From Phycisphaeraceae bacterium (lineage in GTDB: Bacteria; Planctomycetota; Phycisphaerae; Phycisphaerales; Zrk34), in the NCBI GenBank assembly GCA_028282805.1, contig JANQHD010000027.1:1-64000 (forward strand): 64,000 nucleotides of DNA, given 5' to 3'. The notes under the pieces were generated by a model, which ran no database searches, was not told where the DNA came from, and saw only the letters and a list, made by a program, of their open reading frames with translations. This document shows, piece after piece, positions 10,317 through 63,731 of the stretch. The position numbers were made by a program, and so were the translations under genes. Numbering within the stretch: position 1 is the stretch's first letter; every line of letters starts with the position of its first letter.

Positions 10317-12854
10317 TTAAGTGTGCACGGTGTTGCGGCCGGCTTGCTTGGCGGCGCGCATGCGCTTGGTCGCCAGCGCGACCAGGTCGTGGGGGTCGCC
10401 GCCGTCGCCGGGGCTGACGGCCAGGCCGACGGACACCGTGATGTCGACGACCGCGCCGGCGCTGGTTTTGATCGTGGCCTCGTCGACGCGCTGGCGGATG
10501 CGTTCGGCCAGGCCCTTGGCGGGCGCTTGCGAGGCGCCCGCGCAGAGCACGAGGAACTTGTCTTCCATGTAGCGGATGGCGTGGTCGGAAAGCCGGCAGC
10601 TGTCGCTGATGATTTGCGCGACCTCGCGCAACGCCTCGTTGGCGGCGCGGTGGCCGTGTTCGTCGTTGATCTGGCTGAAGCGGTCGATGTCGACCACGAG
10701 CACCGCCCACGGCCCGTGCTGGCGGAGGACGTTGGCCGCGAGCGGCTCGAACTGGCGGTAGCTGGGTAGGTGCGTGACCGGGTCGGTCAGCTCGAGCACG
10801 CGCATCCGCTCGCGCAGCTCGGCGTTGAGCAGGGCGGTCGAGAGCATCGGCGCCAGCGCCTCGAGCAGGAACAGGTGGTAGCGGTCGATCGTCTCGCCGC
10901 CGCGCCGCGCGACCCACACGATGCCCTGCGTGTGTTCGAACGCCACCAGCGCCGTGGCCGCCAGCGATTCGAAGCCCGCCTGGCGGATCGGCTTGGCCCA
11001 CTGGCCGTGCGTCGACAGGTCCGACCAGAAGCTGGTCTCGCGCTGGCTGAGCACGTTGGGCATGAGCCGGCACTGGATCGCGTCGGCCAGCTCCGCGCCG
11101 GCCGGCAGCATGATCGAATTGCCGGTGATGTTGAACAGCTGCCGGCAGCGCTTGCCCGGCACGTTGTAGCGGATCGCCACGCCCACCGCCTCGACGCCCA
11201 TGAACTCCGTGAGGTGCCCCACGCTCACGTCGAGCAGCTCGTCGACGCCGTCGACCTTGTGCAGCGATCGGCCCATCGCTTGCAGCGCCCGCAGCTGCTG
11301 GTCCTGCTGCTGGAGCAGGCGCCGGTTGCGCGCCTCGGCGGTGACGTCCTGCACCACCCACAGCTGCGCCAGCGCCTGGCCCGTGGTGTCGATCACGGGC
11401 ACGATGCGGAACTGGTAGGCGCCCGATCGGCCCTCGAACTGCTCCTGGTGCGTCTGGTCGTGGTTGGCCAGGGCGTACCGCGTGCGCGAGTGGAAGAGCT
11501 GGTCGTCGATCATGCCCAGCGGCCGCCACAGCTCCGAGGGGTCGTACGGCCGGTGCAGCAGCGTCTCCACCGACGCGTTGAGCATCTGGCACACGCGCTG
11601 GTTGGCGGTGACGACGGTCTGGTCCTTCGTCGACACCAGCAGGATCGCGTCGGACATGTGGTTGACCATCAGGTCGATCAGCTGCTTGTGCTCGGTGACC
11701 TGGCGCATCAGGCGTTTGATCTCGCTGATGTCGGTCAGCGCGATGCGCACGCGTTCGAGCTTGTTGTCGTTGTCGTACACGCCCTGGAACTGCACCGCGG
11801 CGTCGATGGGCTGGCCGTGGTCGAAGGTCATCTGCAACTCGCAGCCGTTGACGCGGTCGATCTCGAGCCGGTCGATGCTCTGGCGGAACATGGCCCGGTC
11901 GCACGAGGCGACGTGGTCGAGCACGACCCTGCCGATCAGCGCCGCGGGCTTGCTGACGCCGAACATGTGCGCCGCGCGCCGATTGGCGTTGGTGACCTTG
12001 CCGTCGGGCCCGATGCTCAGCAGCGCCGACGGCGCGTGCTGGTAGAGGTCTTCGAAGGCCTTCTCTCGGTGGCGCAGCTCGGTGGTCACGTCGTCGAGGC
12101 GGTGGAGCATGCGCGCCAGCGCCCCGGCCAGGTCGCCGAGCTCGCCGCCGATCTGTTCGCCGGTCTGCTCGAATTGCTCGGCGGGCGCATCGTTGGCCGC
12201 GAGCTTCACCAGCCGGGTCAGCGGCCCGGTGAACCAGCGCCGCAGCAGGATCAAGCCGACCAGCGCGAGGATGCCCAGCATCAACCACTGGCTGGCTACG
12301 CGCTCGGTGGCGCCGCGCGCGATGTACTGCCGCACGTAAGGCCCGTCGATCAACGCCTCGATCAACCCCTGCTCGCCGCCGAGGTGCACCGGCAGGGCCA
12401 GCAGCGTCTGGCGGTCGAGGTCGAGCCGGCCGAAACCGGTCACGCCCGTCTCGTCGACCGTCCACACCGCGCTGTCGGTCAGGTCACCCGGCCACGTGCC
12501 GCCGGTGATGTTCAGCTCGCCCTTGCACCGCAGGCGCAGCGCCACGATGCGCGGGTCCTGCGCGAAGATGTGGAGGATGTGCGAGACCGAGTCGTGCTGC
12601 TCGGCGTCGAGCAGGGGGTGGATCACCTCCTGCAGGTTGCGCACGGTCACGAGGATCTGCTGCCCGGCCGAGGTGCTGGCCTGGTCTTCGGCGTTGGAGT
12701 ACTCCAGCACGCCCAGCGCAACCGACAGCAGCAGCCCGCCCACGCAATAGGCGAGCACCATCCGGGTCACGAGCGATCTGCCGAAGCGCCTTCTCAACAT
12801 CGTTACCAAAACCCCACGCGCACGGGTAGCGTCCCACGTGTTAGTCATCGGCAT
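10317..12854 (-). CDS. Membrane PAS/GAF/GGDEF protein with degenerate GGDEF motif
   Basis: An 845-aa signalling protein. A membrane segment (about 30-50), an extracytoplasmic sensor region and a second membrane segment (about 190-208) are followed by a HAMP-like stretch, two PAS regions (about 255-375 and 385-500), a GAF-like domain (about 520-680) and a C-terminal GGDEF fold. The signature RYGGDEF is replaced by RYMEDKF, so diguanylate cyclase activity is probably lost. The upstream inhibitory-site motif RxxD (RLSD) is kept, and the metal-binding Asp in DIDRF remains. It may bind c-di-GMP rather than make it. It is a single gene with no visible Shine-Dalgarno. Confidence 0.88.
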   Translation of the reverse strand: MPMTNTWDATRARGVLVTMLRRRFGRSLVTRMVLAYCVGGLLLSVALGVLEYSNAEDQASTSAGQQILVTVRNLQEVIHPLLDAEQHDSVSHILHIFAQDPRIVALRLRCKGELNITGGTWPGDLTDSAVWTVDETGVTGFGRLDLDRQTLLALPVHLGGEQGLIEALIDGPYVRQYIARGATERVASQWLMLGILALVGLILLRRWFTGPLTRLVKLAANDAPAEQFEQTGEQIGGELGDLAGALARMLHRLDDVTTELRHREKAFEDLYQHAPSALLSIGPDGKVTNANRRAAHMFGVSKPAALIGRVVLDHVASCDRAMFRQSIDRLEIDRVNGCELQMTFDHGQPIDAAVQFQGVYDNDNKLERVRIALTDISEIKRLMRQVTEHKQLIDLMVNHMSDAILLVSTKDQTVVTANQRVCQMLNASVETLLHRPYDPSELWRPLGMIDDQLFHSRTRYALANHDQTHQEQFEGRSGAYQFRIVPVIDTTGQALAQLWVVQDVTAEARNRRLLQQQDQQLRALQAMGRSLHKVDGVDELLDVSVGHLTEFMGVEAVGVAIRYNVPGKRCRQLFNITGNSIMLPAGAELADAIQCRLMPNVLSQRETSFWSDLSTHGQWAKPIRQAGFESLAATALVAFEHTQGIVWVARRGGETIDRYHLFLLEALAPMLSTALLNAELRERMRVLELTDPVTHLPSYRQFEPLAANVLRQHGPWAVLVVDIDRFSQINDEHGHRAANEALREVAQIISDSCRLSDHAIRYMEDKFLVLCAGASQAPAKGLAERIRQRVDEATIKTSAGAVVDITVSVGLAVSPGDGGDPHDLVALATKRMRAAKQAGRNTVHT

Positions 12855-16996: not shown

Positions 16997-17893
16997 TCAG
17001 TACCTGATCCACTCCAGGCACAGCCCGTTCGGCGGGGTGGTGGGGCCCGCTTGCTGGCGGTCGGCGTGGGCAAGCAATTCGTCGACATATCCCGGCGGCC
17101 GGTGCCCGCGGCCGACCTCGATGAGGGTGCCGACGATGATGCGCACCATGTTGTAGAGGAAGCCGTTGCCGCTGACGACCACGTGCAGCTCGCGCCCCGC
17201 CGAGCCCGGCTCGAGGCGCCCCTCGGCCGGTGCGTCACCGCCGTGGTCCTCACCCGAAATCATTCTAATGTTCTTAAGAACATTAGAATGATCCGCCGGC
17301 CCCGCATCGGCGGTGGTGGGCGTGAGCGCGGGGCTTTGGCCGAGCGGGTGGGCTTCGACGCGGCAGTCGTAAATGGTGCGCACGGTCGAGCTGCGCCCGT
17401 GCCCGGCGTTGGTCAAGCCCTCGAAGTCGTGCTCGCCGACCAGCCGGCTTGCGGCGTCGTTCATCTCTTGCAGGTCCAGCTTCAACCAGCAGTGATACAC
17501 CTGGTGCCGCAGGCCCAGCGGCCGCTGCGCCGCGTTCCATATTCGGTAGCGGTACTGCTTGTTGCGTGCGCCACCGATGGCGTCGAAGTCGTCGGCCACG
17601 GCCTCGGCGCCGCGTATCTCCACGTCGCCGGGCAGCCGGCTGTTCAGCGCCAGGGGCAAGCGTTCGATCGGTATGCTCAGCTCCGCGTCGAAGTGCGCCA
17701 CCTGCCCGACCGCGTGCACGCCGGTGTCGGTGCGCGATGCGCCGATCACCTCGACCGGTTGGCGGGCGACCTGCGTCAGCGCCTCGCGCACCACGCCCTG
17801 CACGGTGCGCAGCGGCGCGGCGTCCGGCGGGTTCTGCTCCTGCCAGCCGTGAAACTGCGCCCCGTCGTACGCGATGGTGAGCTTGTATCTCAT
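16997..17893 (-). CDS. truA: tRNA pseudouridine(38-40) synthase A
   Basis: A 298-aa synthase that isomerises uridines 38-40 in the anticodon arm. Catalytic Asp56 lies in GASRTDTGVHA; FHGWQEQ and NAFxxxMVR-like GFLYNMVRIIVG are present. It is about 28 residues longer than E. coli TruA because of an insertion (about 178-225) between two strands. That insertion contains a perfect 34-bp palindrome (17259-17292) translated as HSNVLKNIRMI. The frame is preserved, and the palindrome reads the same peptide on both strands. Hairpins flank the gene on both sides. Confidence 0.92.
   Translation of the reverse strand: MRYKLTIAYDGAQFHGWQEQNPPDAAPLRTVQGVVREALTQVARQPVEVIGASRTDTGVHAVGQVAHFDAELSIPIERLPLALNSRLPGDVEIRGAEAVADDFDAIGGARNKQYRYRIWNAAQRPLGLRHQVYHCWLKLDLQEMNDAASRLVGEHDFEGLTNAGHGRSSTVRTIYDCRVEAHPLGQSPALTPTTADAGPADHSNVLKNIRMISGEDHGGDAPAEGRLEPGSAGRELHVVVSGNGFLYNMVRIIVGTLIEVGRGHRPPGYVDELLAHADRQQAGPTTPPNGLCLEWIRY
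17259..17292. repeat. Perfect 34-bp palindrome inside truA
   Basis: The half-site ATCATTCTAATGTTCTT is followed directly by its exact reverse complement. It is AT-rich within very GC-rich coding sequence and lies in frame at about residues 201-211 of TruA. Confidence 0.95.
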
Positions 17894-19869: not shown

Positions 19870-19898
19870 GAAACGAAATTTAAGTTAAATTTCGTTTC
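19870..19898. repeat. AT-rich palindrome, copy 1 (29 bp)
   Basis: The half-site GAAACGAAATTTAA, a central G, and the exact reverse complement of the half-site. It is intergenic, upstream of aroC. Confidence 0.95.
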
Positions 19899-20182: not shown

Positions 20183-20205
20183 ACGAAATTTAAGTTAAAT
20201 TTCGT
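20183..20205. repeat. AT-rich palindrome, copy 2 (23 bp)
   Basis: The half-site ACGAAATTTAA, a central G, and the exact reverse complement. It lies 284 bp from copy 1 in the same intergenic region. Confidence 0.95.
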
Positions 20206-63704: not shown

Positions 63705-63731
63705 AGACGAAATTTAACTTAAATTTCGTCT
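63705..63731. repeat. AT-rich palindrome, copy 3 (27 bp)
   Basis: The half-site AGACGAAATTTAA, a central C (G on the other strand) and its exact reverse complement. It lies between the sulfatase promoter and the dockerin-like gene; the latter's uncorrected stop falls inside it. Confidence 0.95.

Follow-up and report, generated by a model that had tools for sequence, protein, structure and literature searches.

An in-frame palindrome in a Phycisphaeraceae truA gene belongs to a dispersed family whose apparent source is a palindrome-bracketed ArsR-like gene

The window considered here is a 64,000-nucleotide stretch of DNA from a Phycisphaeraceae bacterium (contig JANQHD010000027.1), within which truA carries a 34-bp perfect palindrome without a loop, ATCATTCTAATGTTCTTAAGAACATTAGAATGAT (Table 1). 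The palindrome has a G+C content of 24% in a window of 67%, and random sequence would be expected to contain a perfect palindrome this long about 4e-6 times per 64 kb. With 3 mismatches allowed, the half-site matched only the two palindrome arms in the window (0.02 matches expected). On the minus strand the palindrome is read in frame as part of TruA, inside an extension of about 45 extra residues that was missing from the TruA proteins of seven genomes of the same family, including one of the same genus (G001).

Table 1. Positions of the truA palindrome, its host gene and the bracketed winged-helix unit of the same genome (positions are those of the window unless a contig is named)
Feature	Position	Strand	Remarks
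truA, tRNA pseudouridine synthase A (PF01416)	16997..17893	-	Host of the insertion
TruA extension, about residues 183-232	17195..17347	-	Missing in relatives; ends approximate
Perfect 34-bp palindrome ATCATTCTAATGTTCTT/AAGAACATTAGAATGAT	17259..17292	.	One copy of the dispersed element; basis: window sequence and half-site search
Palindrome as in-frame TruA peptide HSNVLKNIRMI	17259..17291	-	Phase common to 16/16 in-gene copies
26-bp core TTCTAATGTTCTTAAGAACATTAGAA	17263..17288	.	Part that defines the family; 30 copies in G000
Palindrome–wHTH–palindrome unit of G000	C52:203221-203558		Encodes the 91-aa wHTH protein; outside the window

We searched the genome of the window (G000) for the 17-nt half-site and found 36 matches with up to 2 mismatches, against none for the control. 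The 26-bp core TTCTAAWGTTCTTAAGAACWTTAGAA occurred at 30 sites with up to 3 mismatches, and its reversed-pattern control at none; these 30 copies rule out a palindrome formed locally by chance. An earlier note on this DNA had described the perfect AT-rich palindrome, its in-frame peptide and an insertion peculiar to this TruA, and had proposed the half-site search. All of this was borne out, and the note's alternative of a local feature, with the insertion in every relative and no second genomic copy, is not what we found. As classed by a home-made gene finder run on about 400 kb of DNA, 27 of 29 classifiable G000 copies were intergenic and two lay in genes (truA and mnmE), both in frame. The palindromes were flanked by TTA/TAA, TCA/TGA or TCTA/TAGA, and inspection of the copies showed no CGTC or GTAG tag beside the stems.

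In its RNA form the truA palindrome folds into a hairpin of great stability (-25.4 kcal/mol, z -6.8), which would suit a role as RNA or single-stranded DNA maintained for a host function such as termination, mRNA stability or nucleoid organisation. Such a role could also draw on the outer arms of the pooled set, which vary in sequence yet pair well above a shuffled control at positions 2-8 (the control ignores lineage), and on three G000 copies whose outer arms pair over 9, 10 and 12 positions, with a 50-bp perfect palindrome as the longest. We nevertheless find it hardly credible. Core position 7 is unpaired (T/A) in 20 of the 30 G000 copies, the outer positions past the third paired no better than chance in G000 as a whole, and no Rfam family matched at threshold, which also rejects a known RNA family. 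The core is effectively one asymmetric sequence in two orientations, as would be expected if the copies descend from a master sequence and not if each hairpin were maintained on its own. For the 50-bp copy (L042:7581-7630; GC-rich outer arms GCGCCTCTG/CAGAGGCGC), possible readings are a hairpin target that was already present or fold-back synthesis.

Other repeats were noticed as well. A gene of 490 aa is flanked by two similar repeats of about 340 bp (84-86%; L043:9142-9494 and 11030-11370), and in each of them a distance of 113-114 bp separates two palindromes. A different AT-rich palindrome, ACGAAATTTAA(G/C)TTAAATTTCGT, lies at window positions 19870-19898, 20183-20205 and 63705-63731, two of the copies being 310 bp apart, and was absent from about 337 kb of further G000 DNA. 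A third perfect palindrome family, GCGTGGTCACTTAAGTGACCACGC, has three exact copies in G000 (L028:17439-17464, L035:14576-14599 and L036:14518-14543).

A degenerate form of the palindrome gave at least 108 matching stretches in GTDB genomes. Among the matches listed were Planctomycetales bacterium ZRK34, Phycisphaerae MAG S014_18, many Patescibacteria, one Rickettsiales MAG and a few others; mis-binning of MAG contigs may account for part of this list, and the handful of matches in Clostridium could have arisen by chance in AT-rich DNA. IMG/VR held one degenerate match only. Lineage variants had matched arms, as in TTCTAATG..CATTAGAA, TTCTAACA..TGTTAGAA and TTCTAATATT... In ZRK34, five palindromes spaced 341-376 bp apart occupy a tandem array of a repeat of about 350 bp that has no wHTH gene, the winged-helix gene described below (L045:8579-10039). 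In MAG S014_18, where no wHTH was detected, the palindromes are the joints between different sequence modules of about 50-150 bp and give rise to mosaic repeats (L052, L063, L095, L105, L119, L127, L129, L142 and L145), which makes recombination at palindromes plausible.

Sixteen of the 141 distinct pooled sites lie in genes, all in a single reading phase. The encoded peptide is [HY]SNVLKNIR[MI], or in a broader form [HY]S[NK][VI]L[KE]N[VIF]R[MIT]. Host genes encode TruA, MnmE, MnmA, TrmD, an RsmD-like methyltransferase, TsaD, YchF, phosphoglucomutase, an F420-ligase-like protein and others. The insertions in TruA, TsaD and YchF sit in variable loops, which are three different loops for TsaD and corresponding loops in two lineages for YchF, and further copies lie in other genes. 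Genes for tRNA or rRNA modification received about 8 of the 15 independent insertions (L047, L060, L114 and L131, in TsaD; the window; L031, L055, L087 and L128), far above the share of such genes, a pattern noticed post hoc. Pseudouridine synthase genes have been recorded as insertion sites of REPs and of Rickettsia palindromic elements (RPEs) (PMC3733652). At the nucleotide level, the flanks of the loci compared, the DNA flanks in 40 Zambryskibacteria relatives and TsaD of 60 relatives yielded no empty site with precise limits; orthologous loops were too diverged for this comparison, and the TsaD loop is hypervariable.

Clustering of all ORFs near palindromes returned one dominant family, a winged-helix (wHTH) protein of about 85-105 aa at 26 loci, and no other bracketed gene. 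Nearly all 26 genes have one palindrome upstream, 25-60 bp from the start, and a second one overlapping the stop codon, which gives a unit of about 310-350 bp (palindrome, gene of about 90 aa, palindrome). The stop falls either just after the 3' palindrome (...ILKFLRTLE*) or within it (...KTF*), and these alternative registers indicate that the 3' palindrome is not a conserved protein tail. A wider survey found strong palindromes at both ends of 44 of 66 genes, including the quite different TACTAGTGTTTTGCAAAACACTAGTA and TACCAACATTCTGCAGAATGTTGGTA. Palindromes from one unit are much closer to one another than chance would predict (1.76 versus 3.44 mismatches per 13-nt half-site; 0/5000 permutations), and covariation of palindrome and protein over the units was weak (Mantel r=0.12, 124/2000 permutations). 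A more canonical ArsR-like gene lies between two palindromes in MAG-126 (L103:5891-6248) and seems to form a more divergent unit; this MAG belongs to the Rickettsiales, the host order of RPEs. Solo pairs of palindromes in G000 were considered as decayed units and rejected, as tblastn found no wHTH remnant between them; the MAG-126 pair alone held an ArsR-like gene.

The wHTH protein is predicted to adopt the ArsR/SmtB topology (AlphaFold2 model, pLDDT 93.5). The best structure matches of the model were CadC (Z 15.4), CzrA, SmtB and HlyU, and the pNOB8 centromere-binding protein was also in the list. Pfam HTH_5 (PF01022) matched above its cut-off; one member (L106) scored 50.8 for NCBIfam HTH_metalloreg, below the cut-off of 55. 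The alignment has no conserved cysteines, and no catalytic domain was recognised in the unit. Cargo of phages or plasmids was rejected as an explanation: phage records and a profile search of IMG/VR gave no match for the wHTH, and plasmids gave one weak ArsR match.

The ArsR/SmtB fold, the HTH_5 matches and the palindrome just upstream of the wHTH's own start would all suit an ordinary transcription factor with the dispersed palindromes as its binding sites. We consider such an operator regulon decidedly unlikely, because the copies avoid start-proximal DNA: only 11% of the intergenic G000 copies are located in the 100 bp preceding a start, compared with 41% of random intergenic points (home-made gene finder, about 400 kb). 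Seven of the 27 intergenic copies sit between convergent genes, and the second palindrome at the stop codon and the in-frame copies within unrelated coding regions also speak against it.

The palindromes and the wHTH gene occur together. Among the nine genomes of the GTDB family, a close wHTH homologue (E<1e-26) was present in G000, G005, G007 and G008 and not in the other five, and dispersed palindromes were found in all four genomes with the gene and in none of the five without it. Copy numbers were 30, 10, 23 and 7, respectively, each set consisting mostly of the genome's own variant. The variants of G005, G007 and G008 are divergent and match or come near their own units, and the G005 and G008 copies match the palindromes of their own units. 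In 145 evenly drawn Patescibacteria, the wHTH (E<=1e-10) was found in four genomes, of which all four had palindromes, against 6 of the 141 others; this comparison includes a centre genome picked for its palindrome and counts palindromes beside the wHTH gene. Of 46 genomes picked for palindromes, 42 have the wHTH. Two genomes, G065 and G182, contain many palindromes and no detected wHTH, which may be a result of incompleteness, loss or divergence.

The wHTH of G000 shares 60-66% identity with many Patescibacterial wHTHs and 53-60% with those of its own family, and the genes seen around the unit differ among G000, G005 and G008. The high Patescibacterial identity and the differing neighbours suggest that the unit was transferred horizontally between Phycisphaerae and Patescibacteria. 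Within the G000 family the wHTH occurs as a single copy, and we infer movement of the unit from its lack of synteny and its patchy distribution.

Another possibility is that REP- or MITE-like palindromes are moved in trans by a host transposase (RAYT/Y1, IS630-like or other), with the wHTH as a regulator or passenger. The REP/RAYT system offers a precedent (PMC3733652), Y1_Tnp proteins are encoded in G000 (5) and G007 (8), the modules joined by palindromes in S014_18 recall REP-containing mosaics, and TA is often next to G000 copies. We judge this explanation unlikely all the same. No Y1 gene is bracketed by palindromes, the nearest in G000 being 2.7 kb away, and Y1 genes also occur in three of the five palindrome-free family members; an association with RAYT/Y1 was rejected on these grounds. 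The GTAG or CGTC tag was not seen, and the CA/TG pairs found at other copies look like an extension of the palindrome rather than a target duplication.

We think it probable, on balance, that truA harbours a single copy of a dispersed palindromic element that is tolerated in frame, has the palindrome–wHTH–palindrome unit as its source and is mobile both within a genome and between phyla. The apparent source would be the unit of about 310-350 bp, whose wHTH gene ends in the second palindrome. Judging from the sequence matching of the unit palindromes, a wHTH dimer most likely binds them and would repress its own gene through the upstream copy. Single palindromes would insert mostly between genes, and those in the one fully open phase would enter tolerant protein loops as [HY]SNVLKNIR[MI]. 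Dispersal would then take place by copying or moving palindromes to new sites within the genome, presumably with a need for the wHTH protein, while the unit would move horizontally across distant phyla. The DNA might be cut and joined by the host's replication or repair machinery working at the palindrome, or else by a transposase supplied in trans.

A more specific proposal, which we advance tentatively and regard as possible rather than probable, is a minimal selfish element that lacks a transposase and consists only of a repressor-like DNA-binding protein and the palindromic sites belonging to it; the protein would bind palindromes and cause host replication or repair to copy them to other places. 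If true, in-frame protein-coding palindromes would for the first time have an identified protein partner, and the element would be common to Patescibacteria and Planctomycetota by horizontal transfer. The spread of RPEs and other in-frame palindromes has long been a puzzle, since they had no known dedicated protein. The present family has a co-occurring bracketed protein in many genomes, so the role of that protein is directly testable. The family also connects Phycisphaerae with Patescibacteria, hints at transfer between the two and shows peptides inserted in frame in tRNA-modification enzymes, and it is a handy marker for a class of repeats and small regulators likely to escape annotation as now practised. 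Dispersed in-frame palindromes were known already; the bracketed ArsR-like gene as their apparent source was not found in the open-access literature searched. That search returned nothing on the truA-type palindrome or on palindrome-bracketed ArsR genes.

The earlier note had likened the palindrome to RPEs, a good lead that was partly supported, and had missed the central feature, the palindrome-bracketed ArsR-like gene. RPEs are about 150 bp long and fall into about ten families (Ogata 2000 and 2002, as cited in PMC10969869); they have a CGTC tag at one end, and the CGTC class, including RPE-4/6, is reported to have no dedicated transposase (PMC3733652). The likeness lies in palindromic repeats in frame in unrelated housekeeping genes with a conserved encoded peptide, and it is strengthened by the dispersal, the lineage-specific TruA insertion and the frame kept in every in-gene copy. 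The truA palindrome family is not an RPE: its members are 26-34 bp, loopless, mostly intergenic and shared across phyla with Patescibacteria, they bracket a wHTH gene, and by inspection no CGTC is next to the stem.

In REPs, looped stems of 5-13 bp come with an unpaired tag, GTAG or CGTC, and those of the GTAG kind are associated with a Y1 tyrosine transposase (PMC3733652). The present family resembles the REP/RAYT system (REPtrons, PMC3733652) in its short dispersed palindromes, some of them intragenic (including tRNA pseudouridine synthase genes), and in copies that flank one protein gene. It differs in that the palindromes are symmetric, without tag or loop, with stems of 13-25 bp, in that the bracketed protein is ArsR-like, and in that no Y1 locus lies between palindrome copies in G000. 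ArsR/SmtB repressors (CadC, CzrA and the SdpR autorepressor) share the fold, the size and a likely operator-like palindrome upstream, whereas here a second palindrome lies within the 3' end of the gene, many copies are dispersed and one member falls under the HTH_metalloreg cut-off. BIME and BOX mosaic repeats are comparable in that the S014_18 palindromes join different sequence modules; the palindrome is a different one. The truA palindrome family thus works like other in-frame dispersed palindromes, and its length, its lack of a tag and its lack of a Y1 bracket set it apart from both RPEs and the REP/RAYT system.
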